DNA of 64,000 nt from Clostridia bacterium. Its GTDB lineage: Bacteria > Bacillota > Clostridia > Oscillospirales > Acutalibacteraceae. Positions 11,601 through 64,000 of the stretch are shown in pieces. The stretch covers positions 1 through 64,000 of the forward strand of contig JAFULG010000068.1 in assembly GCA_017473435.1 (NCBI GenBank), read 5' to 3'. Below the pieces are notes generated by a model. That model made no database searches, had not been told where the DNA came from, and worked only from the letters and a program-made list of their open reading frames with translations. The position numbers and the translations under genes were made by a program. Within the stretch, counting starts at the first letter, position 1, and every line of letters starts with the position of its first letter.

Positions 11601-12743
11601 GTTGAACATACTCCTGCTGATGCAGTAGAAGAAAACAAAACTGATTCAACTTGCTATAAAACAGGTTCTTACGATGAGGTTGTATATTGTTCACTCGATG
11701 AATGTAAATTTGAAATCAGCCGAACTGAAAAAACAATCGAACTTAAAGAACATACACCCGGCGAAGAAGTAATTGAGAACGAGAAAAAAGCAACATGTAC
11801 TACTGACGGTTCTTATGATAAAGTTGTTTATTGTTCGGTAGAAGAATGTAAAGAGGTTATTTCAAAGGAAACTGTTACAATTCTCGCTCTCAACCACAAG
11901 AACAAGGTTCATCATGAAAAGGTTGAAGCAACCTGTGTGGAAACCGGTACAATAGAATACTGGTCATGTCCTGACTGCTCAAAGAACTTCAGCGATGCAG
12001 ATTGTACAGCAGAAGTAACAGACATTACGATTGCAAAAAATGCTGAAAATCACGTTGAAATTAAAAAAGTAGAAGCAAAGGAACCCTCTTGCACAGAAGT
12101 AGGTTACGATGCATACGAATACTGTACAGGATGTACATACACAACTTACACAGAAATTCCCCAGAAGGGTCATACTCCCGTTCCCGGTGAGTACAAGGCT
12201 CCCACATGTATCAGTGAAGGCTACGAGGGTGCAACAATCTGTGATGTTTGTAAGGTTGAGATTACAGCAGGTAAGTATATCGATAAGCTCGCACATGAAT
12301 TCGGTAACACTCCCGTTCAGGTTATCCCTGAAAACTGTACATATGAAGCAACTTATGTATATAAATGTAAGTTCTGTACAGAAACCAATAAGGTAGGCGG
12401 CGAAGCAAAGCCCGAAGGAGATAAGGGTCCTCATACAATAGTTGAACTTGAGAAAATTGAACCCACTTGCGATACAGCAGGAATTTACTCCTACTACTGC
12501 TCAACCTGCGGCAGTACAGTTAAGACCGAAACGATTGATCCTATCGGTCACGCTGACAAGGATGGCGACGGTTACTGTGATAACTGCGGCGGCAAATACT
12601 TTGATCCCAATAACCAGAGCGTATGTACATGTCTCTGCCATAAGGAAAGCGGATTTATGAAGTTCCTTTATAAGATCGCTAACTTCTTCTGGAAGCTCTT
12701 TAAGATCAACAAGTCCTGCGCTTGCGGTTACGTTCACTATTAA
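5640..12743 (+). CDS. Giant secreted repeat protein with InlB-type repeats (2367 aa)
   Basis: Starts at TTG 5640, eight bases after AAGGAGGT. A signal peptide (lysines, then MSVFMAILMLMSAWVWV, cleavage after about TEAEA) sends it out of the cell. An unassigned N-terminal domain covers about 36-440, a helical FIVAR-like segment 445-510, and a carbohydrate-binding-like beta domain 511-657. Two Gly-rich Listeria-Bacteroides (InlB B/Flg_new) repeats follow at about 660-818. Then come 16 tandem units of about 67-70 residues (821-1921) built on YTVTW.NDDGT...EYG..P.Y.G.TPTK...QYTYTF.GW.P, plus one degenerate unit. About 1985-2320 holds Cys-rich modules (ATC...GSYD.VVYCS..C). The tail has HADKDGDGYCDNCGG, then CTCLCHK and FMKFLYKIANFFWKLFK, ending CACGYVHY. 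No LPXTG, S-layer or dockerin pair is seen, so attachment is unknown. Probably an adhesin or stalk; the function is inferred only. Confidence 0.85.
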   Translation: MKNNLFKKSMSVFMAILMLMSAWVWVAPTEAEAGMISANVTTSFTLSPEGNRGATDWTRLALTGEGGSGGTSVILFRFSNADLKRLAGIDAINLQFYAYSCPDRLTHKSNTSVYADVYYITKNQSFVSNQGSNKNANVGDSSHSVLGSNYGGTNVQNSAKSYFGLSDTTKVGSFEQPAINGNDSANRNGAVNVTCNVTDIVKSKANSGEDLSFIVMLRSAYSCSSSAGWSDIYINSDTIVLSGYDGAYGMPEVGLGNKLDGQMKTTLGSTITVKYPTKMYIDKSEDLSDAGYSINVSCNGNNRMIVFPVMWGGQESDTSGNFAADRSNYDAGLKGQNTIINNFDNYGIRLTGAGSFANETTDKEYTTCLLCDNASQYLSSGNNYALQGKPKSTGTYRYYLTGYYNTSSADPRLTYMGGGGTTYLSNTNYISGNVDFTIYVYDKSALNSTVNSAVGYLGQTGKYTWQSIENLRTAINNAGTVLKTREVTQQQIDAAKDEVTSKVNALEERTYDLTYENLFSFSDWANSDCAKANDTSRGTITYDINNGTIKSVDNSSTSSNDLYSSYGFADKYYKIAVKENTDYYLDFDASATGGQCYIFYYSASGAVNGSDGNPHRSLSANSGAKLITTPAGCTQLGVRFGTAVNGANVTFSNIRLYEADRKDIVDAAKEQGINRVVYAAGDYIPTSSVPTITRTGYTFNDWLVKDVDNNGDGKWDSVYDYDEGAYPMGASFVIYSDWTEHKYNIAFNANGGSGSTAGINNVLYSADTKLTANAFSKTGYIFTGWNTKANGSGTPYADGATVSKLSATDGATVTLYAQWTANKYTVTWKNDDGTVLKTDTVEYGKTPSYTGETPTKTATAQYTYTFDGWDSTLAPVTGDVTYTAKYKSTVNNYTITWVDGDGKTIKTEQVAYGETPSYTGDTPTKTATAQYSYTFKGWSPELATVTGPATYTAQFDSTVNKYTVTWVNYDGTVLETDENVAYGTTPEYNGATPAKLGTAQYNYFFTTWDPAVGPVEGNVTYKAQFRESLTRHTVRFLNYDGTVLQTSTLGYGSTPEYNGATPTKPADAQYTYTFAGWDKEIKDVTVSVDYKATFSTTVNEYTVTWVDGDGKTLKTEQVAYGATPAYTGNTPIKTATKQYTYTFNDTWTPEIATVTGNATYTAQFNSTVNKYTVTWENDDGTTLKTEQVEYGKVPAYPGDTPTKEGNAQYSYTFKAWTPEIVGVTEDVTYTATYTQSTNKYTVTWKNYDGTVLETDEDVEYGTVPTYDGETPTKPSDAQYDYSFNLWTTEVSLVTGDVIYTAKYDANLREYTIKFVNEDGTVLQSGFVKYGDTPAYNGATPTKTATAQYTYTFADWTPAVTAVTGEATYTATYSSTVNEYTVKFVNEDGTELQSSEVAYGATPAYTGETPTKAADAQYTYAFAGWTPTITAVSDNVVYTATYTPTVRSYTVKFVDEDGTTVLDTQTLEYGQVPVYDDTTPTKSATAEYTYIFDKWSPAIAAVTGDATYTATYKATKRSYEVTFVDEDGTVLQSSEVAYGETPAYVGENPVKASTAQYDYTFADWTPEVVAVTGEATYKATYTETVRKYNVTWVDGNGETLKTEQVAYGETPDYTGDTPTKTATAQYSYTFKGWSPAITAVTGDTTYTAQFDSTVNEYTITWKNDDGSVIDTTTVEYGTVPTHADATKAATAQYTYTFAGWDPEVVAVTGDATYTATYTATKNSYTITWLNDDNSVIDSTTVEYGVVPTHSDATKAATDEYTYTFAGWTPEVVAVTGEATYKATFTATKRSYTITWLNDDNSVIDTTTVEYGVVPTHADATKAATAQYTYTFAGWTPEVVAVTGDATYTAQFDSTVNKYTIKFVNEDGTELQSSEVAYGETPAYTGETPTKAADSQSVYAFDGWTPEIVAVTGDATYTAKYSSVANEYEITFKNINGEIVKSEKVAYGDKPVAPENSAIKYDENGHHTYAWPDLQTVTSPFTYNEVETIVEHTPADAVEENKTDSTCYKTGSYDEVVYCSLDECKFEISRTEKTIELKEHTPGEEVIENEKKATCTTDGSYDKVVYCSVEECKEVISKETVTILALNHKNKVHHEKVEATCVETGTIEYWSCPDCSKNFSDADCTAEVTDITIAKNAENHVEIKKVEAKEPSCTEVGYDAYEYCTGCTYTTYTEIPQKGHTPVPGEYKAPTCISEGYEGATICDVCKVEITAGKYIDKLAHEFGNTPVQVIPENCTYEATYVYKCKFCTETNKVGGEAKPEGDKGPHTIVELEKIEPTCDTAGIYSYYCSTCGSTVKTETIDPIGHADKDGDGYCDNCGGKYFDPNNQSVCTCLCHKESGFMKFLYKIANFFWKLFKINKSCACGYVHY

Positions 12744-52976: not shown

Positions 52977-53066
52977 ATGATGCACGGTTTACTTGTCTTG
53001 CCCGGTCTTTACACGGCAGTATTTCTCCACATCGTGGCTTCGATTGCAAATTTCATAGGAGGCTAA
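52977..53066 (+). CDS. 29-residue hydrophobic peptide
   Basis: ATG 52977 follows AAGGAGG at 52962-52968. The peptide MMHGLLVLPGLYTAVFLHIV-ASIANFIGG forms one membrane span with no charged residue. No family recognised. Short hydrophobic ORFs of this kind are common in conjugative elements and in type I toxins. The strong ribosome site supports translation, but the location in element debris means it may be a fragment. The ParB remnant starts 3 bases downstream. Confidence 0.4.
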   Translation: MMHGLLVLPGLYTAVFLHIVASIANFIGG

Positions 53067-53069
53067 TGT

Positions 53070-53222
53070 ATGGCAGAGAATGAAATGCTTACTGATGTGA
53101 CATTAACACAAATCCGTGATTTTCTTCATCATCCCTATCTTGTTAAAGACGATGAGAGTATGGATGAGCTTGTTGAAAGCATAAAGGAAAGAGGCTTGTT
53201 CAGCTCGCAGGGACTGCTTTAA
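53070..53222 (+). pseudogene. Truncated ParB-like protein of an integrative element
   Basis: 50 residues beginning MAENEMLTDVTLTQIRDF, then HHPYLVKDDESMDELVESIKERGLF. This is the start of the ParB/Spo0J nuclease-like domain (H-P-Y-x-V, D-x-S-M-x-E-L-V-E-S-I-x-x-x-G) found in Tn1549/Tn916-type conjugative elements, where the full protein has about 300 residues. The frame stops soon after, at the point where IS30 transposase sequence begins in another frame, so an insertion or deletion cut the gene. Confidence 0.75.
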
Positions 53223-53782
53223 AAACAGATATATGTATTCTGCAAAGCTGGCACAAGCCGAGGTCCAAAAGCGAAAAGCAACAGCAATACCGTATCGGCA
53301 GAGGATATGATGAGTTTCAACGGTTTATGCTGGATAATCCCGATTGCCCTGTTGTGCAGATGGATACAGTAAAAGGCAAAAGAGAAAAAGGCAAGGTTAT
53401 TCTTACGATGCTGATGCTTAAATATGATATTATGCTTCTTTTTCTTTTGCCTGAAAACACGGCATCTGCAGTTGTTGATGTATTCGATTTCCTTACCGAT
53501 ATTCTTGACCTCGATGTCTTTCAGAACTTATTTCCTGTAATCCTTACAGACAACAAAGCAGAATTCAAACGTGTTGAAGAATTAGAATACACCTGTACGG
53601 GTGAACAGCGGTGCATGATGTTTTACTGTGACCCTATGGCTTCGTGGCAAAAGGGTGAGCTTGAAAAGAATCACGAATACATCCGTTATGTTATTCCTAA
53701 AGGAACAAGCCTTGATCCTTATACACAGGAAGATGGTGTTATTTATATGATAAAAATAACCATCGAGCAGGTCGATGGTTAA
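53216..53782 (+). pseudogene. IS30-family transposase fragment
   Basis: An open frame running from the ParB junction, with the nearest ATG at 53327, carries the DDE core of IS30 transposases: CPVVQMDTVKGKR (first Asp), LFPVILTDNKAEFKR (second Asp; TDNGSEF in active members), YCDPMASWQKGELEKNHEYIR (shown in part; Glu) and VIPKGTSLDPYTQED. The N-terminal HTH half is missing, and after TQED the frame runs into unrelated residues (IKITIEQVDG), consistent with a frameshift and loss of the end. No terminal inverted repeats were found. It is not expected to be active. Confidence 0.85.
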
Positions 53783-53817
53783 TTCTCTAAATAACATTCG
53801 ACATCAATTTATCCTCC

Positions 53818-53982
53818 TTACTTTTCATAAATATCGATGAGTTTTAAAAGCAATTCGTCAATTTCCTCAGTGGGTAAACCCTCAACCATAAGCATGTTGC
53901 GAAATTCAATCATACCGTTGATAAGCAAGTTGCATTCAAATCTGTCGAGTTTAATTCTTATTTTTTTGCTTTTCATAAACAT
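53818..53982 (-). CDS. 54-residue protein of mobile-element type
   Basis: ATG 53982 on the minus strand follows AGGAGG. The sequence KSKKIRIKLDRFECNLLING-MIEFRN, then LPTEEIDELLLKLIDIYEK, is a short helical protein. It resembles small hypothetical proteins often found in Tn1549-type elements (K.KLT..E.N.....L...RN.L...G.....DELLLK), but no function is known. Its good ribosome site and intact frame suggest that it is expressed or only recently lost its context. Confidence 0.65.
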   Translation of the reverse strand: MFMKSKKIRIKLDRFECNLLINGMIEFRNMLMVEGLPTEEIDELLLKLIDIYEK

Positions 53983-54182
53983 GAGAACGCCTCCTCGTTT
54001 CTTGGTAATTAAATTTTACTTTATTATAATAAAAATTTCGAATGTGCGATAAATAATTTGCTGTTATTCGATTCGTTCGTCAATCTGAAACCTTAAAATA
54101 TGATCTTATAGGAGAGAACGTGTTTTTTGAAATGATAAGAAATTCATTTTGAAAGAAAAGCATTTAAAAGTAAAAGTGTCTG

Positions 54183-54211
54183 TTGATTTATTCTTTTAAA
54201 AATGATATACT
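54183..54211 (+). promoter_or_regulatory. Promoter of the GPH transporter gene
   Basis: TTGATT (54183-54188), 17 bases, TATACT (54206-54211), followed by AGGAGAG before ATG 54242. Confidence 0.65.
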
Positions 54212-54241
54212 TTTATAAAATTAATGTAGGAGAGTGAAAAT

Positions 54242-56653
54242 ATGAATTGGATTAAAAAAGTTAAAGGCAGTATTTCTTATTTACAAACATACTGGAAAAC
54301 ACCACCATTAGGAAATTATATGACAATTAAAGAGATTGTTTCTCTTGCCGGTGGCAGTATTGGTGTTAGATTTATAACTCAATGTGTTTCTTCTGTGCTT
54401 TTATCCGCAACGAATGTTTTCGTAGGCAATACAATCGGTATAGAACCGATGAATTTGTATTATATATATCTGATTTCTGTTATTATCAGTTTCCCATTCA
54501 CAATGCTCAGAGCATACATTATTGATAACACAAGAAATAAAAAAGGAAAATACAGACCGTATCTTATTTCGATGGGTATCCCGACCGTACTTTTATCAAT
54601 CGGTTATTTCTGGATGCCCTATGAAAAAATGGAGAGTCAGGTTACAAAATGCGTTGTTGTTCTTCTCTTCAATATTGGGTTCCAGTTCTTCTATAATTTC
54701 CTTTATGAAGCGTACTACAATTATGTGGTTGTTCTGTCGCCTAATACTCAGGAGAGAGCAAATGTTTCATCTGTCAAAGCGGTTGTTGAATCATTCGGTC
54801 CTTCAGTAACCGGTATCATCATTCCTCTTTTTGCGAAGAACTTTATAGGTACAGATAACCTTAATGACATCAGACTATACAGATACATTTGGGTTCCGAT
54901 TCTTATTTTAGGCCTTTTTCTCAGTATCATTGTTTATGCCAATACTCACGAAAGAATTATTCAGGCAAAAACTCATGTTGTTCAGATTAAATTTATGGAT
55001 GCATTGCGTGAGGTTACAAAAAACAAGTATTTTTGGATTACATCGCTTGCCGGTTGGTTAGGATTTCTTGAAGGAGCATGCTTTAACATTCTCAATTGGC
55101 TTTACTCTTATCAACATGCCTGTACTGCGGGTCAGTATGCTTTAATTACTACTGTTTACGGAAATGCATCTCTTTGGGGTATGCTTTTAGCTCCTCTTGC
55201 AATCAAAAAAATTGGTAAGGGTAAAACTCTTCTTCTTATAAATTCACTTAACATTGTCTTCATTGGTGCTATTTATCCAATAGTAAAATATGCAGATATG
55301 AGTATTATGATATGGCTTGTTCTTATCTGTCTTTGGATGAACGCCCTCGTGGGTGCCTTCGGACATATCCTTTCGCCGAGCATAAACGGTGATATCCGTG
55401 ACTATCAGCAATATGTATCAGGTGAAAGAATTGACGGTATGTTTGCGGCAGTCGGTCTTATCGGTAGTGTTATTACAATGGCAACAAGCTCTGTTCTTCC
55501 GGCAATTTACGAAAAGGTCGGCTTTAATGAAAGTAAGCTTCAGGAATTATTACCTTCAATCATCGCTCAGGAAGGCTCTCTTAAAGATCCGACAAATGTT
55601 TACAATGTTCTTTATCATAAAGAAACATTTATAGCTATTTTCGGTGTTTTAATCGCAGCTTCTGTTATTGGTGCAGTAATGAATGTTATTCCATATTTCT
55701 TCTATGACCTTACAGAAGTTAAACAGCAGGGTATTATCAAGGTTCTTAAAATCCGTGCATTATTTGAGGATTACGGTAACGGTGTTCTTCAAGACCGTGA
55801 CCTTGTTGAAACTATTGATATTATCAAACAGGCAAAGGCATTTGAATGTGCTCAACCAAAAGACATCAAAGCATATAAACTCGCAATCAAGCAAGCTAAA
55901 GACAAGGCATCAAAGAAAGTTGCAAAAAAAGAATATAATGCCGCAAAACAGTATAATGTTGATATTGAAGTTTCAAAGATGGTTCTTGAAGAAATGGCTC
56001 GTTTCAACACAGATTTTGGTAGAATTCAACTTGAACAGGCAAGGAAAACTGCTTCTTTAGGCTATGATGCAATTTATAATTATGATAGTAGTGAGCTTGC
56101 GAAGGCAAAAGCACTTCCAACCGGTACTCCGGAAGAAAAGGAATTCAGAAAGAATGCTGTTTCCGTTGCAAAAGACTTTGTTGATGCTCAAAAGGTTGCA
56201 AAGAAAAAGTTCGATAATAATATCATTGAATTTGATTCAAGTATCTTTGATAAGCTCTTCAATCGTGAAGACGATATTTCTGCAAAAATTGAAGAAGCGT
56301 ATGCAAGACTTTACAAGGCTAATGATGAAAAAGACAACGATGCTATTGCTCATATCAAGGCGGAAATAAAAGAACTTAAAAAAGAACGTAGCATTATTGA
56401 AAAAGAAATCAAAAATGCAACAACTGAAAATTCGCTTTATGCCCGTGCTGCTCGTCCTGTAATAAAGGCACAGAAACTTTTGATTCAAGCTGAAAACTAT
56501 ACAAAACTTGAAGAAATCGAAAGCCTTTATGAAGAGGCAAAAGCAAGACACGAACAGACCATGGAAGATGCTCGTATAGAAGCAGAGCGTGTTGAGGCAG
56601 AAAAGAAAGCGCACGCAGAAAAAATTCGTGCTCAGAAAGTAGAAAAGAAATAA
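54242..56653 (+). CDS. GPH-family (MelB-like) sugar symporter with long coiled-coil tail
   Basis: 803 residues. Residues 1-485 carry about 12 spans in MFS/GPH style: a short N-terminal loop, SLAGGSIGVRFITQ, the loop AYIIDNTRNKKGKYRPYL (D-x-T-R-x-x-x-G-x-x-R-P, the GPH cation/sugar signature) and NGDIRDYQQYVSGERIDG after span 10. GPH proteins bring in glycosides, pentosides or hexuronides with a cation. Residues about 500-803 are hydrophilic and rich in Lys, Glu and Ala (IKAEIKELKKERSIIEKEIK; EAERVEAEKKAHAEK), predicted to form long coiled coils in the cytoplasm; typical MelB proteins end near 480. Its codon use is more AT-rich than that of the neighbours, and it lies beside mobile debris, so transfer is possible. 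Confidence 0.85.
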   Translation: MNWIKKVKGSISYLQTYWKTPPLGNYMTIKEIVSLAGGSIGVRFITQCVSSVLLSATNVFVGNTIGIEPMNLYYIYLISVIISFPFTMLRAYIIDNTRNKKGKYRPYLISMGIPTVLLSIGYFWMPYEKMESQVTKCVVVLLFNIGFQFFYNFLYEAYYNYVVVLSPNTQERANVSSVKAVVESFGPSVTGIIIPLFAKNFIGTDNLNDIRLYRYIWVPILILGLFLSIIVYANTHERIIQAKTHVVQIKFMDALREVTKNKYFWITSLAGWLGFLEGACFNILNWLYSYQHACTAGQYALITTVYGNASLWGMLLAPLAIKKIGKGKTLLLINSLNIVFIGAIYPIVKYADMSIMIWLVLICLWMNALVGAFGHILSPSINGDIRDYQQYVSGERIDGMFAAVGLIGSVITMATSSVLPAIYEKVGFNESKLQELLPSIIAQEGSLKDPTNVYNVLYHKETFIAIFGVLIAASVIGAVMNVIPYFFYDLTEVKQQGIIKVLKIRALFEDYGNGVLQDRDLVETIDIIKQAKAFECAQPKDIKAYKLAIKQAKDKASKKVAKKEYNAAKQYNVDIEVSKMVLEEMARFNTDFGRIQLEQARKTASLGYDAIYNYDSSELAKAKALPTGTPEEKEFRKNAVSVAKDFVDAQKVAKKKFDNNIIEFDSSIFDKLFNREDDISAKIEEAYARLYKANDEKDNDAIAHIKAEIKELKKERSIIEKEIKNATTENSLYARAARPVIKAQKLLIQAENYTKLEEIESLYEEAKARHEQTMEDARIEAERVEAEKKAHAEKIRAQKVEKK

Positions 56654-56796
56654 AATTTATAAAGGCTGCAATAGAAAAAAACGGATTCATATAATCCATA
56701 AATGAAATTAAAAGAGCTGAAGTGAAAATATTTTTCTGAGATAGTAGCAATAAAATTCAATTTATTCGGTTGTTGCTATTTTAAGCTGTAAACACA

Positions 56797-56829
56797 AAAA
56801 TTCTCGTTCTTAGGAACGAGAATTTTTTT
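56797..56829 (+). terminator. Rho-independent terminator
   Basis: AAAATTCTCGTTC, loop TTAG, GAACGAGAATTTTTTT; 13-pair stem with a T run after the transporter gene. Confidence 0.95.
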
Positions 56830-56831
56830 AT

Positions 56832-57037
56832 CCAAGCCGATAGGCTTGGTATATCATCACGCGTCAGCGTGTATATCATCAGCACGGCATAGCCGTGTTG
56901 TATCTCATCACACCTTTAGGTGTGTATTCTGTCGGCTTGATGATATGCAAGGCTTACGCCTTGATGATATACAGCTTCTTACGAAGCTGATGATATGCAA
57001 TTCCTGCGGAATTGATGATATCCAAGGCTTCGCCTTG
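56832..57037. repeat. Mirrored array of eight hairpins with constant 8-base linkers
   Basis: Seven clear small hairpins plus one half-unit follow each other. Left half: CCAAGCC-GGCTTGG (56832-56849), CACGC-GCGTG (56858-56871), CAGCACGGC-GCCGTGTTG (56880-56900), CACACC-GGTGTG (56909-56924), separated by TATATCAT (once TATCTCAT). The centre holds TATTCTGTCGGCTTG (56925-56939), whose TCGGCTTG can pair back with CAAGCCGA at 56833-56840. Right half: CAAGGC-GCCTTG (56948-56963), CAGCTTC-GAAGCTG (56972-56989), CAATTCC-GGAATTG (56998-57014), CAAGGC-GCCTTG (57023-57037), separated by ATGATATA, ATGATATG and ATGATATC. The linkers of the two halves are reverse complements. Stems differ in sequence but always begin CA or CCA and end TG or TGG. 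Function unknown. Confidence 0.9.
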
Positions 57038-57060
57038 ATTTATTTGAAGAAACTTTAAAG

Positions 57061-57089
57061 TTGTAATTAAATAATGCTTGTGATATAAT
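57061..57089 (+). promoter_or_regulatory. Promoter of the orphan gene at 57135
   Basis: TTGTAA (57061-57066), 17 bases, TATAAT (57084-57089), just after the hairpin array. Confidence 0.7.
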
Positions 57090-57134
57090 CAATTCAGTAA
57101 ATCAGTTTTTTGTGTAGCGGAAAGGAGAATATCA

Positions 57135-57926
57135 ATGAAAAGAATGTTAATGATCAAAAGAAAAGGCTTTAATTATTATACTGATTATACCGAACTGTAC
57201 TTGCATAATGCTTTTCAAAATTACGGTTACTCTATAGTGAGAGATAAAGCTAAAAGTGATTTTTCTGTAATTGTTTATATATCTGAATTTGCAAAATATA
57301 TGATGCTGACTTCGACTTTTTTCGATGAATTAAGCGAAAGCGATGCAGTAAATCTGTGTGAAATATTCAGCAATGCATTTAAAAGCGAGGCTGCAATAGC
57401 TGATATTGTGGAATGTGAAAATGCTTCATTTGAAGCTTATGAATTTATGCTCAGTAAAACATACAGTGCATATGATGAGCCTGTTTATATGGTTGACGAA
57501 CCACCGAAGCTTGAATGGAGAACACGTGATATTAATTTCGAAACAAATAAAAATTATTCTATGAGTTTTGTTAATGTAGGAGGAAAATTTTCAGGAATAA
57601 ATATTACTTTTGATTTTAATGAAAGCTTATATGATTTAGAGTTATCTGATGCCCACATATCTCGATTTAACGGACATAGTTTTTCAAGACAGGAATTTGT
57701 CTTCAAAAAAGAAAACGGTTGTTTTAAGGCAGATATAGATTTTCTTAAGCTTGAAAAAGGAATCAATCCTAAAAGTGCAGTATTGAGAGCCAAGAAAAGA
57801 GCAAACGAAGAGGAAAGGTATGGCTTTTGGTTAGGTGTTTTGCCTGTCAGTAAGGAAGATGTAGTTTTAAAGGGTACATTAACAATTAAGTCTGATAACA
57901 TAGAGCTCTTTAGAGGCAATATATAA
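57135..57926 (+). CDS. Uncharacterised cytoplasmic protein (263 aa)
   Basis: No family recognised. AAAGGAG precedes ATG 57135. No signal peptide, membrane span or Cys cluster. Residues 1-115 look like a mixed alpha/beta domain (FNYYTDYTELYLHNAFQNYG, then DFSVIVYISEFAKYMMLTSTFFDELSESDA). Residues 130-263 look beta-rich (PPKLEWRTRDINFETNKNYSMSF..., FVFKKENGCFKADIDFLKLEKGINPKSAV). LRAKKRANEEERYGFWLGVLP is a basic-acidic helix before the last strands. It is AT-rich like the GPH transporter gene, monocistronic, and placed between the hairpin array and the dehydratase-type operon, from which it is separated by a terminator. It may be a transferred accessory gene. Confidence 0.7.
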   Translation: MKRMLMIKRKGFNYYTDYTELYLHNAFQNYGYSIVRDKAKSDFSVIVYISEFAKYMMLTSTFFDELSESDAVNLCEIFSNAFKSEAAIADIVECENASFEAYEFMLSKTYSAYDEPVYMVDEPPKLEWRTRDINFETNKNYSMSFVNVGGKFSGINITFDFNESLYDLELSDAHISRFNGHSFSRQEFVFKKENGCFKADIDFLKLEKGINPKSAVLRAKKRANEEERYGFWLGVLPVSKEDVVLKGTLTIKSDNIELFRGNI

Positions 57927-57974
57927 CATTGTAGACAAATCAAGCCGCAACTCAAATTATATTTGTAACTTACC

Positions 57975-58006
57975 GCCCAAAGTTTCCAAAAACTTTGGGC
58001 ATTTTT
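57975..58006 (+). terminator. Rho-independent terminator
   Basis: GCCCAAAGTTT, loop CCAA, AAACTTTGGGC, then ATTTTTG. Confidence 0.93.
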
Positions 58007-58018
58007 GTAATTTTTGTG

Positions 58019-58047
58019 TTGAAAATCACCGAAACCTTTGTTATAAT
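58019..58047 (+). promoter_or_regulatory. Promoter of the CooC/HgdBAC/ACS-like operon
   Basis: TTGAAA (58019-58024), 17 bases, TATAAT (58042-58047). No promoter or terminator is evident inside the seven genes that follow, so they are probably one transcript. Confidence 0.75.
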
Positions 58048-58098
58048 GTAATTTAAAGTAATATGCGGATTTGCGTCCGCTTTACAAGGAGAATACAT

Positions 58099-58863
58099 AT
58101 GGAAAACAACGCAACAATCATTGCCCTTTCAGGTAAGGGCGGTGTGGGTAAAACCTCAATCTCTGCCGCTATCGTAAAGCTGCTCGTTGAGGCTTATCCC
58201 GATAAAAAAATCCTCGCTATTGATGCTGACCCTGCCGTGGGACTTTCAACAGCACTCGGTATCGAGGTTGAAACCACAATCGATGATATCCGTAAGGAAA
58301 TCGTTTCCACCGTTGAGGACGGTAACACCAAGGCGGCTATTGAGCTTTTAGGTGACGCAAGATATAAAATCTTTGACGCACTTGTTGAAACTGACGGCTT
58401 TGCTTTTATCGCCGTAGGCAGACCTGAAAGTGCAGGCTGCTACTGTAAAATCAACGCTTATCTTAAAGAGGTTATCAGCCTTCTTTCCGCTGATTTTGAC
58501 TTTGTTGTAATTGACGGTGAGGCAGGCGTTGAGCAGATTAACCGCCGTGTAATGGAAAAGGTGACACACCTTTTACTGATTACCGATGCAAGCAAAAAGG
58601 GCACACAGGTTATTTCAACTATCAAGTCTGTTGCCGATGAGCTTGTTATGTACAAAAAAATCGGTGCAATCGTTAACAGAATTCCCGATGAAAGCGTTAT
58701 TCCTCACATTAATACAAACGGAATTCCCGTGCTATCATATATTCAGAATGATACAAACCTTGCAATTTATGATATCGAGGGCAAGAATATTACAAAGCTG
58801 CCTGAGGATTCAAATGTTGTAACGGGTGTAAAGAAGGCTCTTACTGAGCTTGACATATTATAA
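58099..58863 (+). CDS. CooC/AcsF-type metallocentre-maturation ATPase
   Basis: 254 residues of the MinD/ParA-like SIMIBI ATPase class. SGKGGVGKTS (11-20) is the deviant Walker A with the signature lysine; ILAIDADPAVGLSTALG is switch I; VVIDGEAGVEQINRR is the Walker B region with the D-x-E-A-G motif of CooC. The CxC pair (Cys114, Cys116 in SAGCYCKIN) matches the metal-binding CxC of CooC, which loads nickel into CO dehydrogenase, and of AcsF, which does so for acetyl-CoA synthase. ATG 58099 follows AAGGAG; the longer frame starting at 58063 is unlikely. It leads the operon with an ACS-like protein, so maturation of a metal site in this cluster is the likely role. Confidence 0.88.
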   Translation: MENNATIIALSGKGGVGKTSISAAIVKLLVEAYPDKKILAIDADPAVGLSTALGIEVETTIDDIRKEIVSTVEDGNTKAAIELLGDARYKIFDALVETDGFAFIAVGRPESAGCYCKINAYLKEVISLLSADFDFVVIDGEAGVEQINRRVMEKVTHLLLITDASKKGTQVISTIKSVADELVMYKKIGAIVNRIPDESVIPHINTNGIPVLSYIQNDTNLAIYDIEGKNITKLPEDSNVVTGVKKALTELDIL

Positions 58864-58874
58864 GGAGTAGGCTT

Positions 58875-60080
58875 ATGAAGGATTTAAAGCATCTTTATGA
58901 ATTTGAGAAGCTTTTGCAGGAGGCTAACAACGAGCTTGTGCAGAAGGCTAAAAATGACGGCGGAATAGCTCTCGGCTATACCTGCTACCATATTCCCGAG
59001 GTGTTGCTCAACTGCGGAAACTGCTTTTCCGTAAGACTCCGCGCACCCAGAACAGGCTCAATGGATATTGCTACCTATTATATGAGTAACTTCCTTTGCG
59101 GTTTTTCAAAGGCGATTCTTGAAAGAGCAATCGAAGGCGGCTATAATTTCCTCAATGCTCTTCTTGCTTCGGAAACCTGCTCAGAAATGAACAGAACAGC
59201 CGAGCATTTTGAGCTTCTCAATCTTGTTGATAATGAGAAGTTTTTCCTTACCTTTCTTGATATGCCATTTAAAATTGAGGAGCATACAGTTAAACATTAT
59301 GTTAAACAGACACGCCTTAAAATACTTGATATGCTCACGGAGGTTTACGGCGTTGACACCTCTGATGATGCACTTTTAAAGGCTGTTGAGGAGCACAACG
59401 AGGTCTGCCGTCTTATGACGGAAATCGGTAACTACCGCAAAGAGGATAATCCCCGCATTACAGGCTATGAATATCACGTTCTCAATCTTATTACATACTG
59501 TTGCCCCAAGGCTCTTATTCTACCTATGCTTCGCGAGACTGCCGAGGAGCTTAAAGCAAGAGAGCCCGATGCTAAAAAGAACTACCGTGCAAAAATCGTT
59601 GTTGTCGGCTCGGAGATGGATGACCCCGAATTCACCTCACTTATTGAGGATAGCGGCGCACTTGTTGTTGCTGACAGATACTGCTTCGGAGCCCTTCCCG
59701 GCAGACAGGAAATCATCATCAAGGAAGGGGAGGACGTACTTACTCAGATTTGTATGCACTACCTTAAAACAAGTCAGTGTCCCCGTTATATGAGCCATGA
59801 AAAGGTTCAGGAGAGACGTGACTATGTAAAGCAGCTTGTTGACGAATACAACGCCGACGGTGTTATGTATGAGCAGCTTAAATTCTGCGAATATTGGGGA
59901 TATGAAAGAGCTCTTGCCTCATATGTTATGACAAATGACTACGGTGTACCAACCGCAGCTGTTGACCGTCAGTATACTGCTTCAGCATCAGGTCAGCTTC
60001 GCACCCGAGTTCAGGCTTTTGTTGAAAGCCTTGAAATCAAAAAAATACAGAAGGAGAGGAAGGAGAAGGAAAATGGATAA
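58875..60080 (+). CDS. 2-hydroxyacyl-CoA dehydratase / double-cubane-type Fe-S protein, HgdB-like subunit
   Basis: 401 residues of the HgdB/BcrB/FldC superfamily. GYTCYHIPEVLLNCGNC (34-50) is the typical opening (G-x-x-C-x-x-P-E, Cys37). Further conserved-type cysteines are Cys75 (SNFLCGFSK), Cys102 (SETCSEMNR) and Cys338 (LKFCEYWG); HgdB-like subunits hold a [4Fe-4S] cluster with three such cysteines. RYMSHEKVQERRDYVKQLVDEYNADGVMY is the family's C-terminal region. Cys47 and Cys50 close to Cys37 are extra and could serve a larger cluster, as in double-cubane proteins (Jeoung and Dobbek); that is inference. It sits 11 bases after the ATPase gene and overlaps the next subunit by 8 bases. Confidence 0.85.
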   Translation: MKDLKHLYEFEKLLQEANNELVQKAKNDGGIALGYTCYHIPEVLLNCGNCFSVRLRAPRTGSMDIATYYMSNFLCGFSKAILERAIEGGYNFLNALLASETCSEMNRTAEHFELLNLVDNEKFFLTFLDMPFKIEEHTVKHYVKQTRLKILDMLTEVYGVDTSDDALLKAVEEHNEVCRLMTEIGNYRKEDNPRITGYEYHVLNLITYCCPKALILPMLRETAEELKAREPDAKKNYRAKIVVVGSEMDDPEFTSLIEDSGALVVADRYCFGALPGRQEIIIKEGEDVLTQICMHYLKTSQCPRYMSHEKVQERRDYVKQLVDEYNADGVMYEQLKFCEYWGYERALASYVMTNDYGVPTAAVDRQYTASASGQLRTRVQAFVESLEIKKIQKERKEKENG

Positions 60081-61602
60081 CTACGGTAAGCTTTATAAAG
60101 AACATACCGCTGTGCTTAAGCACAGAGAGTGGCGTGGATTTAAAGATACGATGTACGATTATTATCGCTGGCTTATAACCTGGAAGGATATGATCAAAAT
60201 GGTGCTCAAAGCACCTGTATCAACGGTTAAAGGCTTATGGCGTTACCGTTGGATGGCTTCCTACCTTTCAACTCCGTCTTTTATAGACCGTCACGTTGCA
60301 GGTCTGCGCGGACCGCACCTCCGAATTGCACATCTTCATTACAATATGATTGTTAAGCACACAACAAAGCTTATCAATATTTCCTTCCGTGCTGATGAAA
60401 AAATCAATCCCGGTAACAAGCTTTCGAAGAAAATTGTTCTTATGGATGAGATTGTTCCCAATGAGGTTTTCACAGGCTTCCCTAACCTCATTCCCGTTCC
60501 CTTGCAGACTCTGCCTATCTTCCTTTCTTCAATGGTGGATCAGCAGATTACACCGCCTTACCTTGAAACAACAGAAAGCTTCGGTGTTCCCGCTGACGTT
60601 TGTCCGCTTCCCTCTGCTGAGGCCGGTGTAGCAATCGAGGATGACTATCCTAAAATGGGCTGCTGTATGGTTGGTACAAATATGCCCTGCGACGGCTCAA
60701 TTATGAACTCGTCCTTCCTTGATAGAAGATTAAACCTTCCCACTCATTGCTTCGGCATTCCTCTGCGCTATGACGGTGAGGATGTTCAGGAGTACGCAGT
60801 GGAGGAAATCAAGTCTCTTATTAAATTCATTGAAGAGCAGACCGGTGAAAAGTTTGACTGGGATGCTTACTTCAAGCGAATGAAGGATTACAACAAGCAG
60901 CTTGAATATGAAAAGCAGAAGTGGGATATCAACAAAACACCCTATCCTCAGATGACGGGCGCAACCTTCTGGCTTTACAGAATTTACTACTTTAACCTCT
61001 CGGGCGGTTCAAATGAAAACTTCCTTAAGGTTGACAAAAAGGTCAACAAGATAATGATGAAGGGATATGAAAAGAAAACTCCCGTTTCAAAGGAAATGCG
61101 ACACAGAGCCGTTGTGTGGTCCTGCCCTGCAAACTATTACACAAGCTTTGCAAACTGGCTTGAAAACTGCTGGGGTATGAACGTTGTTATGGATATGGAA
61201 ACCATGATTTCCTATCTCGAAATTGATACCGAGGATAAAGAACAATCCCTTAAGGACCTTGCAAAAACCTATCAGCGCTCAATTATGCGTAAGCACACTA
61301 AGGGCGGTTACCGTAATGTTGTTGATGAGCTGTGGCGTATAGTAGAGGAATATAATGCTGACACGGTTATTATGTATGATCAGATTTCCTGCAAGGGTAT
61401 GGACGGACTTATGGGTATATTTGATGACCAGGCAAGAGAAAAGGGCATCAACTTCATCTGGGTACGTCAGGACCTTATGGATCCCCGTACAATTTCACGA
61501 AGAGAGATGCGTGATCAGGTTAATAAATATATGCAGACCGTTCTGCAGGAAGAACCCCTTGACGCTTCACTTTTAGACTTTGAAGACGATTTAGCTTGGT
61601 AA
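60073..61602 (+). CDS. HgdA-like partner subunit of the dehydratase-type complex
   Basis: 509 residues. Starts at ATG 60073, inside the end of the previous gene, with AGGAGAAGGA upstream; the frame also opens 46 codons earlier but without a ribosome site. The first 110 residues are basic, aromatic helices (WRGFKDTMYDYYRWLITWKDMIKM shortened) with no counterpart that I know in HgdA. The rest follows the dehydratase fold: VLMDEIVPNEVFTGFPNLIPVPL, CPLPSAEAG, the Cys-rich GCCMVGTNMPCDGS (Cys197, 198, 206), HCFGIPLRYDGED, and a final domain with SCPANYYTSF, QISCKGMDGLMG (Cys440) and DLMDPRTISRREMRDQVN. It should form a heterodimer with the HgdB-like protein. The substrate is unknown; no CoA-transferase gene is present. 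Confidence 0.8.
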   Translation: MDNYGKLYKEHTAVLKHREWRGFKDTMYDYYRWLITWKDMIKMVLKAPVSTVKGLWRYRWMASYLSTPSFIDRHVAGLRGPHLRIAHLHYNMIVKHTTKLINISFRADEKINPGNKLSKKIVLMDEIVPNEVFTGFPNLIPVPLQTLPIFLSSMVDQQITPPYLETTESFGVPADVCPLPSAEAGVAIEDDYPKMGCCMVGTNMPCDGSIMNSSFLDRRLNLPTHCFGIPLRYDGEDVQEYAVEEIKSLIKFIEEQTGEKFDWDAYFKRMKDYNKQLEYEKQKWDINKTPYPQMTGATFWLYRIYYFNLSGGSNENFLKVDKKVNKIMMKGYEKKTPVSKEMRHRAVVWSCPANYYTSFANWLENCWGMNVVMDMETMISYLEIDTEDKEQSLKDLAKTYQRSIMRKHTKGGYRNVVDELWRIVEEYNADTVIMYDQISCKGMDGLMGIFDDQAREKGINFIWVRQDLMDPRTISRREMRDQVNKYMQTVLQEEPLDASLLDFEDDLAW

Positions 61603-61617
61603 AGGAGCAATAATAAA

Positions 61618-62418
61618 ATGAAATATTTTGGCGGATGCGATGTAGGATCAACCTACACAAAATGTATAATTCTTGATGAAAACGGTAAAATTGTTGCCAA
61701 CGTAACAAACAGAAGTAAAATTAACCCCGTACAGAGCGCTGAAATCGCTCTCGGTGATGCAGTTGCACAGGTTGACGGACTTGAAAACGCAAAGGAGCTT
61801 ACCTACCTTATCGGTACAGGCTACGGCAGAAACAAGGTTCCCTTTGCTGACGAAAACATTTCTGAAATCAGCTGTCACGCTATGGGTGTTCACGTAACAA
61901 ATCCCGAGGTTAAGGCAATTATCGATATCGGCGGTCAGGATGTTAAAGGCATTTCTATTGATACCGACGGTACAGTTAAAAACTTTGCAATGAACGATAA
62001 GTGCGCCGCAGGTACAGGCCGTTTCTATGAAGCAATGGCAAACGCCTTCGAAATGTCGCTTCCTGAATTTTCAAAGCTTTCCCTCGGAGCAAAGAATACT
62101 ATTCCCATTACAGCGCAGTGTACTGTTTTTGCCGAAAGTGAAGTTATTTCTCTTGTAGGTGAGGGTAAGCCTATGGATGAAATTGCCGCCGGTATTCAGC
62201 TCGCAGTTGCAAAGCGTTGCTTTGTTATGGCTAAAAAAGCCGGTGCAACAGACAGCATTACTCTTACAGGCGGTTGTGCTAAAAATGACGGACTTAAAGC
62301 TGCTATTGAAAAGGTGCTTAAAATTAAGGTTGTTGAGCTTAATACCGACCCTCAGCTTATGGGCGCTCTCGGCGCAGCGGAATATGCCCGTCAGAAAGGC
62401 CTTGCAAAGGTGAACTGA
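61618..62418 (+). CDS. HgdC-type ATP-dependent activator (BadF/BadG family, Fe-S)
   Basis: 266 residues of the ASKHA-fold activator that hydrolyses ATP to push a low-potential electron into dehydratases or double-cubane proteins. Shows GGCDVGSTYTKCIILDENG (phosphate-1), GTGYGRN, IDIGGQDVKGISI (phosphate-2), MNDKCAAGTGRFYE with one cluster Cys, QCTVFAESEVISLVGEG with the second cluster Cys, and LTGGCAKNDG. The homodimer normally bridges one [4Fe-4S] with these Cys pairs. AAAGGAGC precedes the ATG, 15 bases after the HgdA-like gene. It defines the cluster as an ATP-driven reductase system. Confidence 0.96.
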   Translation: MKYFGGCDVGSTYTKCIILDENGKIVANVTNRSKINPVQSAEIALGDAVAQVDGLENAKELTYLIGTGYGRNKVPFADENISEISCHAMGVHVTNPEVKAIIDIGGQDVKGISIDTDGTVKNFAMNDKCAAGTGRFYEAMANAFEMSLPEFSKLSLGAKNTIPITAQCTVFAESEVISLVGEGKPMDEIAAGIQLAVAKRCFVMAKKAGATDSITLTGGCAKNDGLKAAIEKVLKIKVVELNTDPQLMGALGAAEYARQKGLAKVN

Positions 62419-62419
62419 T

Positions 62420-62578
62420 ATGGATATTATTCTTACTATACTTGCGGTTATTTTTGCGCTGTTTGTTATAACATTTGCAATTTACTGGTTTAACCTTGAT
62501 ATGAAGCTTATCAGGGTGGTGTATGACTGGCTGTGGAAAAACCGCTACGATAAAATGAAAAAGGATAAAAAGCTCTGA
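62420..62578 (+). CDS. 52-residue single-span membrane microprotein
   Basis: ATG 62420 begins one base after the activator stop, and its TGA overlaps the ATG of the ACS-like gene, so it is locked into the operon by position. Residues 1-24 (MDIILTILAVIFALFVITFA-IYWF) form one membrane helix. Residues 25-52 are aromatic and basic (LDMKLIRVVYDWLWKNRYDK, then MKKDKKL) and should lie in the cytoplasm. No cysteine. It could tether the complex to the membrane. No family recognised. Confidence 0.75.
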   Translation: MDIILTILAVIFALFVITFAIYWFNLDMKLIRVVYDWLWKNRYDKMKKDKKL

Positions 62579-63267
62579 TGAAATTTTTTTCTTCGCTGAT
62601 AAAGGATTTTTCTGCTTTTACAGAACCTTATAATAAAAAGAAATATGCATACAACGGGCAGAATTGCTGGAAGGATATCGGTTACAACGAGGTCATTATG
62701 CAAAGAGATACTGCCTTTGAATTAAGCGGTACAGGGTTTAACCTGATTACGTCTTCTCCCGTTGAAAGCGGCGTGACTGTAATAGGCGATGATCTTGGAG
62801 ATATAACAGAAAGCCGTAAATTTGCCAGAGTATCTCTTGTTCAGCTTGAGCAGCAGGAGGATGAGCAGAAAATATATAACCTCATCAGAAAGGTTGAGTA
62901 TGTAAAATATCATTATTTTCCTGAAGGGTATATGATGCGCACTTCTTCCAGATCACATAAGGAAGCCGTCAGAGTTTCAAAAAAAGCCGTGAAAAACGGA
63001 ATAAGCTTTGAAACGGCGGGTAATCTTCTTATAAAAAAATATATGGAAAATCCTGCTGTAAAGGCGGTAAACGTTGTTTTCGTTACTGACCACAAGTTGG
63101 ATTACAGTAAGCTTGAAGCTCTTGCTCTTAAGGGTAACGGAATAACTGAAGCTCTTAATCACATTATGAACAGCGTTAAATTTGACTGTGAAACCTGTAA
63201 TCTTAAGCCTGTATGTGATGAGGTTGAAGGAATGAAGGAGCTTCATTTTAAAAGTATGGGTATGTGA
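62578..63267 (+). CDS. Short acetyl-CoA synthase (CdhC/AcsB)-like protein lacking the Ni-site part
   Basis: 229 residues matching the middle of acetyl-CoA synthase. VIGDDLGDI (69-76) fits GPDL-type; VSKKAVKNGISFETAGNLLIKK (shortened: VSKKAVKNG, 133-141) fits V-S-K-x-A-x-x-K-G-F; VNVVFVTD (164-171) fits the V-Q-V-T-x-x-T-D stretch. FDCETCNLKPVC (202-213) aligns with the Cys-x2-Cys...Cys region that holds three of the four [4Fe-4S] ligands of the A-cluster. The protein ends 16 residues later, without the fourth Cys and without the C-G-C nickel motif. About 500 residues of normal ACS are absent. It cannot do acetyl-CoA synthesis alone. Together with the CooC/AcsF-type ATPase it suggests a new metal-site subunit. 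The alignment is from memory. Confidence 0.7.
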   Translation: MKFFSSLIKDFSAFTEPYNKKKYAYNGQNCWKDIGYNEVIMQRDTAFELSGTGFNLITSSPVESGVTVIGDDLGDITESRKFARVSLVQLEQQEDEQKIYNLIRKVEYVKYHYFPEGYMMRTSSRSHKEAVRVSKKAVKNGISFETAGNLLIKKYMENPAVKAVNVVFVTDHKLDYSKLEALALKGNGITEALNHIMNSVKFDCETCNLKPVCDEVEGMKELHFKSMGM

Positions 63268-63268
63268 T

Positions 63269-63844
63269 ATGGATAAAAAAGATATAGCAGAGTTTTTTGA
63301 CAGACTTGCCGGGCAATGGGATTGCAATACGGTAAGAAACGAGGATGTAATAAATATAATTCTTGAAAAAGGCGGGATAAAAAAAGGTGTAAGAGTGCTT
63401 GATGTTGCCTGCGGTACGGGAGTGCTTTTTCCTGATTATTACAGCAGAGGGGCTGATGTGACGGGGATTGATATTTCTGCCCGGATGGTAAAAGCTGCAA
63501 AGATAAAGTTTCCTGATGCTGAAATAATTTGCGGTGACGCTGAAAGCTTTACTTTTCCGGAAAAATACGGTGCAGTAATGATTTATAATGCCTTTCCGCA
63601 CTTTGCTAATCCTGAAAAGCTTTTTGAAAATCTGTCGAAGACTCTCGTTGACAATGGTAGGCTGACGGTTGCTCACGGAATGAGTGAAAAAGCACTTGCC
63701 GAGTGTCACGCAGGCTCGGCAAAAAATGTATCTCTGCCGTTGCCATCGAAGGAGCATCTTGCGGAAATTATGTCAGCTTATTTTGATGTTGATGTAATGA
63801 TATCCGATGAAAATATGTATATGGTATCGGGAACAAAAAAATAG
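63269..63844 (+). CDS. Class I SAM-dependent methyltransferase (UbiE/Methyltransf_11-like)
   Basis: 191 residues. VLDVACGTGVLFPDYYSRGADVTGIDIS (in part) holds motif I (D-V-A-C-G-T-G) and the acidic loop (GIDIS); ICGDAESFTF is motif II-like; YNAFPHFANPEKLFENLSKTL matches motif III and the following helix. The acceptor is unknown. It begins one base after the ACS-like stop and is the last gene of the operon. Because ACS and corrinoid chemistry use methyl groups, a link with the upstream genes is tempting but unproven. Confidence 0.85.
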   Translation: MDKKDIAEFFDRLAGQWDCNTVRNEDVINIILEKGGIKKGVRVLDVACGTGVLFPDYYSRGADVTGIDISARMVKAAKIKFPDAEIICGDAESFTFPEKYGAVMIYNAFPHFANPEKLFENLSKTLVDNGRLTVAHGMSEKALAECHAGSAKNVSLPLPSKEHLAEIMSAYFDVDVMISDENMYMVSGTKK

Positions 63845-63943
63845 TTTATTAAGATATGTAACATAAAATTCATTATTTTTTATTTATTTATCGGAAAAAC
63901 CACTGTATAATATTATGTGAGAAAATAATTGGAGGAAAACATA

Positions 63944-64000
63944 ATGGCAAGAAACCATGAAGTAACACAGAGAAATAACCTTTTAAATGCTGACGGTACT
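63944..64000 (+). CDS. Start of a gene cut by the window edge
   Basis: ATG 63944 follows GGAGG at 63931-63935. A TATAAT at 63906-63911 (weak -35) may drive it. The 19 visible residues read MARNHEVTQRNNLLNADGT. This resembles the beginning of DUF2804 proteins (...LL-x-x-x-G-x-x-N-E-P-G), but the fragment is too short to be sure. Confidence 0.6.
   Translation, partial: MARNHEVTQRNNLLNADGT

Follow-up and report, generated by a model that had tools for sequence, protein, structure and literature searches.

The operon and its conserved six-gene core

We analyzed a 64,000-nucleotide stretch (hereafter the window) of contig JAFULG010000068.1 from a Clostridia bacterium of the Acutalibacteraceae (GenBank assembly GCA_017473435.1), in which seven genes, named G1 to G7, follow one another on the forward strand between positions 58099 and 63844. 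As the original prediction, made from the DNA letters, had stated, they are closely packed: the open reading frame (ORF) calls give spacings of +11, −8, +15, +1, −1, and +1 bases. G1 (58099–58863, 254 residues) encodes a CooC-type ATPase, of the ParA/MinD type by family search, G2 (58875–60080, 401 residues) and G3 (60073–61602, 509 residues) encode two HGD-D subunits, and G4 (61618–62418, 266 residues) an ATP-dependent activase. They are followed by a membrane peptide, G5 (62420–62578, 52 residues), a protein related to the middle domain of acetyl-CoA synthase (ACS), G6 (62578–63267, 229 residues), and, by family search, an S-adenosylmethionine-dependent methyltransferase, G7 (63269–63844).

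A sigma-70-like promoter site with an extended −10 element (TTGAAA-17-TATAAT, 58019–58047, forward strand, 11 of 12 positions) precedes G1, and a terminator-like stem of 11 pairs (57975–58000, forward strand) lies 3′ of the preceding gene; both are consensus matches only. No terminator-like site was found on the forward strand within the operon. The claim that the genes stand behind one promoter is only plausible from these matches, because a second site with an equal score and no extended −10 element lies inside G2 (59119–59147) and the region holds 18 promoter-like sites, against 13.0 (SD 3.8) in shuffled sequences.

The conserved unit consists of six genes, G1–G6, shared by bacteria of deer, cattle, goat, and sheep guts and by various relatives. 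In a first survey, for which named genomes were scanned with a G6 alignment, 25 loci were collected; a herbivore gut sample is named in the titles of 16 of them, and one is labeled Erysipelotrichaceae. G1–G6 are found in the same order and on one strand in 23 of these 25 loci from other genomes, while L005 and L011 are cut by contig ends. The order is kept, and G5 present, even in the distant loci L039–L042, in which G6 is 30–44% identical. G7, originally counted as part of the unit, had to be rejected: it occurs in 10 of the 25 loci, in three of these on the opposite strand, and is thus missing or reversed in 18.

A second set of loci comes from the family of genome G223, probably Lachnospiraceae because Butyrivibrio names occur among the relatives. 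The profile used, A2, includes one real ACS piece and so detects both protein types, which were split by open-frame length into a G6 type (231–274 residues) and an ACS type (at least 500 residues). Among 397 genomes of this family, G6 is found in 30, a long ACS-type frame in 47, and both in one, a low overlap that is not significant (3.6 expected, P 0.11). Eighteen of 28 loci from this family match the gene order of the window, and another three show it rearranged (L081, L097, and L099). L082 carries G1-G4-G5-G6 with no G2 or G3 nearby; contig ends truncate four loci (L076, L084, L089, and L101), and two are unclear in the ORF calls (L100 and L102). Over 58 loci, window included, G4 and G6 are present in 56, G3 in 53, and G1 and G2 in 51. 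Among 391 sampled genomes of the class, 10 had a match, seven of them in short G6-type proteins and three in long ACS-type frames, and in a phylum-wide sample the short type appears in only 2 of 398 genomes (G000 and G949). This patchy spread, together with the 84–89% identity of G2, G3, and G4 between the Erysipelotrichaceae locus and the window, suggests transfer between lineages.

A predicted reductase pair with its activase

G2 and G3 belong to the HGD-D family (PF06050, 308.7 and 163.0 bits; cut-off 28.4), and G4 matches both BcrAD_BadFG (PF01869, 189.4 bits) and the acyl-CoA dehydratase activase model TIGR00241 (212.2 bits; cut-off 125.4), so that the predicted HgdC/HgdBA-type module is indeed present. 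In the host genome (2.56 Mb in 91 contigs, 96.9% complete), PF06050 matches at E ≤ 0.001 are limited to G2 and G3. G4 is predicted to form a homodimer with a [4Fe-4S] cluster; Cys129 and Cys168, which we take to be the cluster ligands, are conserved in 54 of 54 sequences. Six G2 cysteines, also conserved in 54 of 54 sequences (Cys37, 75, 102, 270, 302, and 338), align with the BzdN ligands Cys36, 73, 100, 263, 293, and 327 of the class I benzoyl-CoA reductase BzdNOPQ (PDB 8s02), described in the available text of PMC11971306. By alignment the pair carries the whole cysteine set of that class, six for the [8Fe-9S] cluster in G2 and three for the [4Fe-4S] cluster in G3, and we predict a double-cubane subunit in G2 and an open-site [4Fe-4S] subunit in G3. 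G3 has an extra conserved cysteine, Cys366, and an REWRG segment found in 16 of 16 alignment rows, and its model gave a fold match.

The pair stands apart from the characterized enzymes. Its scores are far below the cut-offs of the benzoyl-CoA reductase equivalogs (98.6 against 453.8 for G2 with TIGR03190, 29.4 against 486.55 for G3 with TIGR02260), and the double-cubane model NF040772, although the best NCBIfam model for G2, is not reached either (141.4 bits for G2 and 57.0 for G3; cut-off 350). In a 38-row tree, G2 and G3 each form a separate clade with 100/100 support, outside HadB/HadC and outside the sampled dehydratase and benzoyl-CoA reductase clades, which is the placement that had been expected of the HgdB-like subunits; G2 lies beside BzdN with a support of only 85/57.

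When compared with BzdNOPQ, as far as it is described in PMC11971306, the same two-HGD-D heterodimer, the six double-cubane and three [4Fe-4S] cysteines, and a BcrAD-type activase are recognized, but the window has one activase gene instead of two, the additional G1, G5, and G6, the peculiar Cys366 and REWRG of G3, separate clades for both subunits, and no recognized CoA genes nearby. DCCP with DCCP-R resembles G2 in having the [8Fe-9S] ligand set in one subunit together with an ATP-driven activase; DCCP is, however, a homodimer, whereas G3 retains only three ligands and G2 scores below the NF040772 cut-off. The subunits of the (R)-2-hydroxyisocaproyl-CoA dehydratase HadBC, which works with HadI, fall in other clades than G2 and G3, and two of the six aligned G2 cysteines have no cysteine counterpart in HadC.

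CooC-type ATPase, membrane peptide, and ACS relative

G1 shares with the nickel-insertion ATPases CooC and AcsF the deviant Walker A motif KGGVGKT and a CxC motif (Cys114-Tyr-Cys116, codons 58438–58446, forward strand), the latter kept in 51 of 51 sequences, and its best solved match is CooC (3kje, 60.7 bits). In the tree it groups with uncharacterized CooC-type ATPases of Wood-Ljungdahl clusters. It differs from CooC and AcsF in forming its own 100/100 clade and in that its host has neither a CO dehydrogenase (CODH) nor a complete ACS as a client.

G5, which has no Pfam family, consists of one hydrophobic stretch followed by N-x-D-x-K, features that were recognized by eye in each copy read. 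It precedes G6 in 52 of the 56 loci with G6, so that the membrane microprotein of the original prediction is co-conserved.

G6 matches CdhC (PF03598, 37.2 bits; cut-off 24), and its model shows the middle-domain fold of ACS. Its C-terminal motif, C204-x2-C207-x5-C213-D-E-V-E...H223 (63187–63246, forward strand), has C204, C207, C213, E215, and H223 in 56 of 56 sequences; the distant version of genome G949 has lost the histidine and keeps the three cysteines. With AcsB/CdhC, G6 shares the middle domain and a C-x2-C where the A-cluster ligands begin, but it lacks the N-terminal domain, the C-terminal domain, and the CGC motif, with 229 residues against about 710. The CGC motif, which in ACS binds the distal nickel, is absent from the window G6, was not seen in the aligned G6 rows, and is present in the ACS of L037 and L038. 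The family comprises 1566 proteins at E ≤ 0.001; judged from these sequences, G6 is a member of a large family and no decayed ACS, so that the kinship to ACS originally proposed stands and the truncation does not. Some sources label G6-type proteins CO dehydrogenase/acetyl-CoA synthase beta subunit. PF03598 counts taken as acetyl-CoA synthase can overcall acetogenesis in gut metagenomes. When looking at G6 alone, the protein is found, by name, in Butyrivibrio proteoclasticus, Eubacterium callanderi, and Acetobacterium malicum, which are cultivable candidates.

At E ≤ 0.001, the host genome contains no match to PF03063 (CODH/HCP) or to PF03599 (corrinoid iron-sulfur protein, CFeSP), and G6 is its sole PF03598 match; CODH, CFeSP, and full ACS of the Wood-Ljungdahl pathway are thus lacking. 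The recurrent synteny that had been anticipated is likewise found mostly in genomes without CODH, a PF03063 match being absent from 20 of 24 operon genomes. The predicted absence of acetogenesis genes therefore holds for the host but not throughout: genomes G184 and G296 carry CODH-family, CFeSP, and formyltetrahydrofolate synthetase genes in addition to the operon, and, like G432 and G949, they possess the two systems whole or in large part. Strong CFeSP matches were detected only in G184 and G296 of the 24; the others are weak and fall in frames of about 790–850 residues, which we read as methionine synthase. Formyltetrahydrofolate synthetase, matched in 24 of 26 genomes, is a common gene and was not used as evidence.

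Order variants and neighbors

In L039, a second, divergent G2′-G3′-G5′ set adjoins a single G1, G4, and G6, and further divergent G3′ genes, accompanied by G2′, G5′, or both, lie beside one activation set in L075, L077, L078, and L101. Where the order varies, G6 adjoins G1 (L081) or both G4 and G1 (L082, L097, and L099); the notion that G6 always stands next to G4 was dropped, as the G6 of L081 adjoins G1 only. On the basis of this duplication and of the position of G6, G2-G3-G5 looks like a catalytic, membrane-bound part and G1-G4-G6 like an activation part, although G5 mostly stands between G4 and G6, which speaks against a strict split. A deep-branching version in genome G949, from another class (L167, 9096–19731), has the order G2-G3-activase-activase-G6-G1 and is preceded by two acyl-CoA dehydrogenase-like genes and a gene for 594 residues; a long ACS-type frame is present in this genome as well. 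In genome G296 (L041, 1133–10560), G1 is immediately preceded, across a gap of 27 bases, by genes for a ferredoxin, an aldehyde ferredoxin oxidoreductase, a protein that we read as MoaD-like, and an alcohol dehydrogenase.

Nineteen non-core neighbor clusters recur in at least 3 of the 58 loci. Ten were checked against Pfam and are transporters, amino-acid enzymes, and the like, with no CoA-handling gene; the others were judged by their first residues only. No CoA transferase was recognized in the operon, the nearest upstream genes, or the downstream ORFs, of which only some were family-searched, and no CoA-handling gene among the host ORFs read up to 11.6 kb downstream. An ene-reductase-type flavoenzyme, like old yellow enzyme (OYE) or like the isoprene reductase IsrA, adjoins the operon in 15 of 30 loci of the G223 family. 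In L039, L075, L077, L078, L079, and L095, the OYE-like gene shares the strand of the operon and is no more than about 0.6 kb away. Nine loci (L040, L081, L084, L086, L087, L088, L090, L092, and L094) have the IsrA-like gene immediately downstream, that of L094 being split in two frames. Each of the eight IsrA-like proteins examined has a pair of CxC motifs spaced 74 residues apart, the spacing given for IsrA in the available text of PMC10134865, and the domain set agrees with that of IsrA. HypA follows the IsrA-like gene in seven of the nine loci; the same text places HypA near 73% of 988 IsrA homologues. HypA thus goes with a separate IsrA-like module, and the support for nickel that it seemed to offer was dropped.

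Proposed function

We regard the operon as a variant of the ATP-driven reductases of the benzoyl-CoA reductase, 2-hydroxyacyl-CoA dehydratase, and DCCP type that has been combined with a CODH/ACS-related module. As regards mechanism and ALTERNATIVES, an ATP-driven reductase is the most likely mechanism. G1–G6 would form a low-potential reductase that is driven by ATP and tethered to the membrane, with G1 and G6 as its metal-loading and electron-entry module, a reading to which we assign a probability of about 0.6. G4 may act as an ATP-switched electron pump like HgdC and BcrAD: electrons would flow from a donor to G4, assisted by G6, then to the double cubane of G2, the probable electron store, and finally to the open-site [4Fe-4S] cluster of G3, the likely catalytic subunit. 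G5 would anchor the G2-G3 pair at the membrane. G1, as a CooC relative, may insert a metal, most likely nickel, at the ACS-derived cysteines in G6; G6 in turn could pass electrons or metal on to the reductase. The position of G6 in the order variants, next to G1 and mostly also G4 and not next to G2-G3, fits such an activation role. Our best guess for the substrate is an unsaturated or otherwise hard-to-reduce molecule, since half of the G223-family loci adjoin an ene-reductase-type flavoenzyme. The distinct ATP-dependent low-potential reductase of the original prediction thus gains from the synteny, the separate clades, and the membrane peptide, and loses G7; its metal, ATP use, and substrate are to be read as proposals.

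If this reading is true, two of the lowest-potential metal toolkits, the benzoyl-CoA reductase pump and CODH/ACS maturation, have been fused into one conserved gut-bacterial unit. No description of the gene set was recognized in the open-access full-text literature among the matches listed, and it may be in print elsewhere. In the available texts, the named genes of the benzene 'Magic' cluster (PMC13101534) and of the mlp clusters (PMC10418091) differ from those of the window operon.

Several observations weigh against the membrane-tethered reductase. The ligand assignments are read from alignments, and the case for nickel is drawn from the relatives of G1 and its CxC motif, while the solved CooC1, a partial chain on a long branch that calls for caution, sits in the other ATPase clade. 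G6 is more variable than the other large core proteins, with 49–71% identity in the 25 loci against 89–97% for G4, which is odd for a catalytic metal site, and its tail has low model confidence. The spread is patchy, with G6 in none of eight genomes of the same family. No flavoenzyme lies beside the window operon, and neither the host nor any of the 13 tested genomes of the 25-locus survey has an IsrA-like protein at E ≤ 1e-100. The loss of HypA as a nickel argument and the acyl-CoA dehydrogenase-like neighbors in genome G949, which favor a CoA-ester substrate, go in the same direction.

These last genes lead to the least unlikely of the alternatives: the operon would encode an unexceptional catabolic enzyme from the benzoyl-CoA reductase/2-hydroxyacyl-CoA dehydratase group, its substrate would be an acyl- or aryl-CoA ester, and G1 and G6 would give minor help with maturation. 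G2, G3, and G4 do fall in this group, and the G949 operon combines two activases, as in benzoyl-CoA reductase, with acyl-CoA dehydrogenase-like genes, whose best model is cyclohexane-1-carbonyl-CoA dehydrogenase (scores of 111 and 70 bits, below the cut-off of 650). The original statement that no acyl-CoA dehydrogenase stands beside the operon is therefore right for the host, where none was recognized, and not for this distant version. The tree positions and equivalog scores of G2 and G3 and the lack of recognized CoA-handling genes make such an enzyme unlikely, as does the retention of G1, G5, and G6 at a frequency close to that of G2 and G3.

A lipid or alkene reductase would be a substrate-level version of the membrane-tethered reductase: G5 would serve as its membrane dock, and the neighboring ene reductase would carry out the C=C reduction before or after, for example in fatty-acid biohydrogenation by Butyrivibrio. 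The OYE-like and IsrA-like neighbors, the IsrA-type CxC spacing, and the G6 protein of Butyrivibrio proteoclasticus are in line with this idea, but the flavoenzyme could equally serve as electron donor, the nine IsrA-like loci are partly dependent (L088 and L090 are from one genus), and no lipid gene was recognized among the recurrent neighbors. IsrA-like genes are, moreover, common elsewhere in the genomes that carry them; as they are often away from the operon and missing from the host and the 13 survey genomes, their products are partners in one branch at most. Together with the window operon's lack of a flavoenzyme neighbor, this leaves the lipid or alkene version distinctly doubtful.

A long shot is a new kind of ATP-driven nickel enzyme, in which G1 would insert nickel through G6 and the double-cubane pump would bring a Ni-Fe-S site to potentials that permit the reduction, at the membrane, of CO2/CO or of unactivated C=C bonds. 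If true, gut Clostridia would gain a nitrogenase-like small-molecule reductase, which could explain CO dehydrogenase activity without CODH genes.

By analogy with methyl-coenzyme M reductase, which is activated by a complex, the operon might encode an ATP-driven machine for reactivating another metalloenzyme, with G6 as docking subunit. L082, L097, and L099 do have G1, G4, and G6 grouped away from G2-G3, and no recurrent catabolic gene was recognized; the complete BzdNO-like ligand set retained in G2-G3 and the lack of a recurring partner enzyme nearby render this very improbable.

Least credible of all is a stand-in for CODH/ACS, in which the reductase would yield CO from CO2 and G6 aid acetyl-CoA formation in fermenters without the canonical complex: the relation of G1 and G6 to CODH/ACS-cluster proteins, the 20 of 24 operon genomes without PF03063, the near-exclusive G6 and long ACS-type frames in the G223 family, and the puzzle, which it would explain, of Ca. 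Galacturonibacter, a Lachnospiraceae acetogen with acetogenesis and CO dehydrogenase activity but no CODH/ACS genes in the available text of PMC7000372, speak for it, yet that overlap is statistically insignificant, CFeSP is missing from the host and strong in only two operon genomes, G6 has no CGC nickel motif, and four genomes hold both systems or large parts of them, which weakens any alternative acetogenesis.

Genomic surroundings

Upstream of the operon, family search identified a GPH/MFS sugar transporter with a long charged tail past the transporter domain (54242–56653), and a 263-residue protein (57135–57923), for which neither Pfam nor NCBIfam gave a match at E ≤ 0.1, lies directly 5′ of the operon. 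Between these two genes, at 56849–57030, short repeats TGATGATATNCA and their complement occur in both orientations. No Rfam family reached its threshold in 53000–64000. On the 3′ side of G7, an ORF from 63929 onward (L170, 130–1179) encodes 349 residues, and the host ORFs from the operon to the contig end appear, when read by eye, unrelated. At 5640–12743, the window encodes a protein of 2367 residues, probably a surface protein, in which many repeats resemble one another; one of them fits the Listeria-Bacteroides repeat model.

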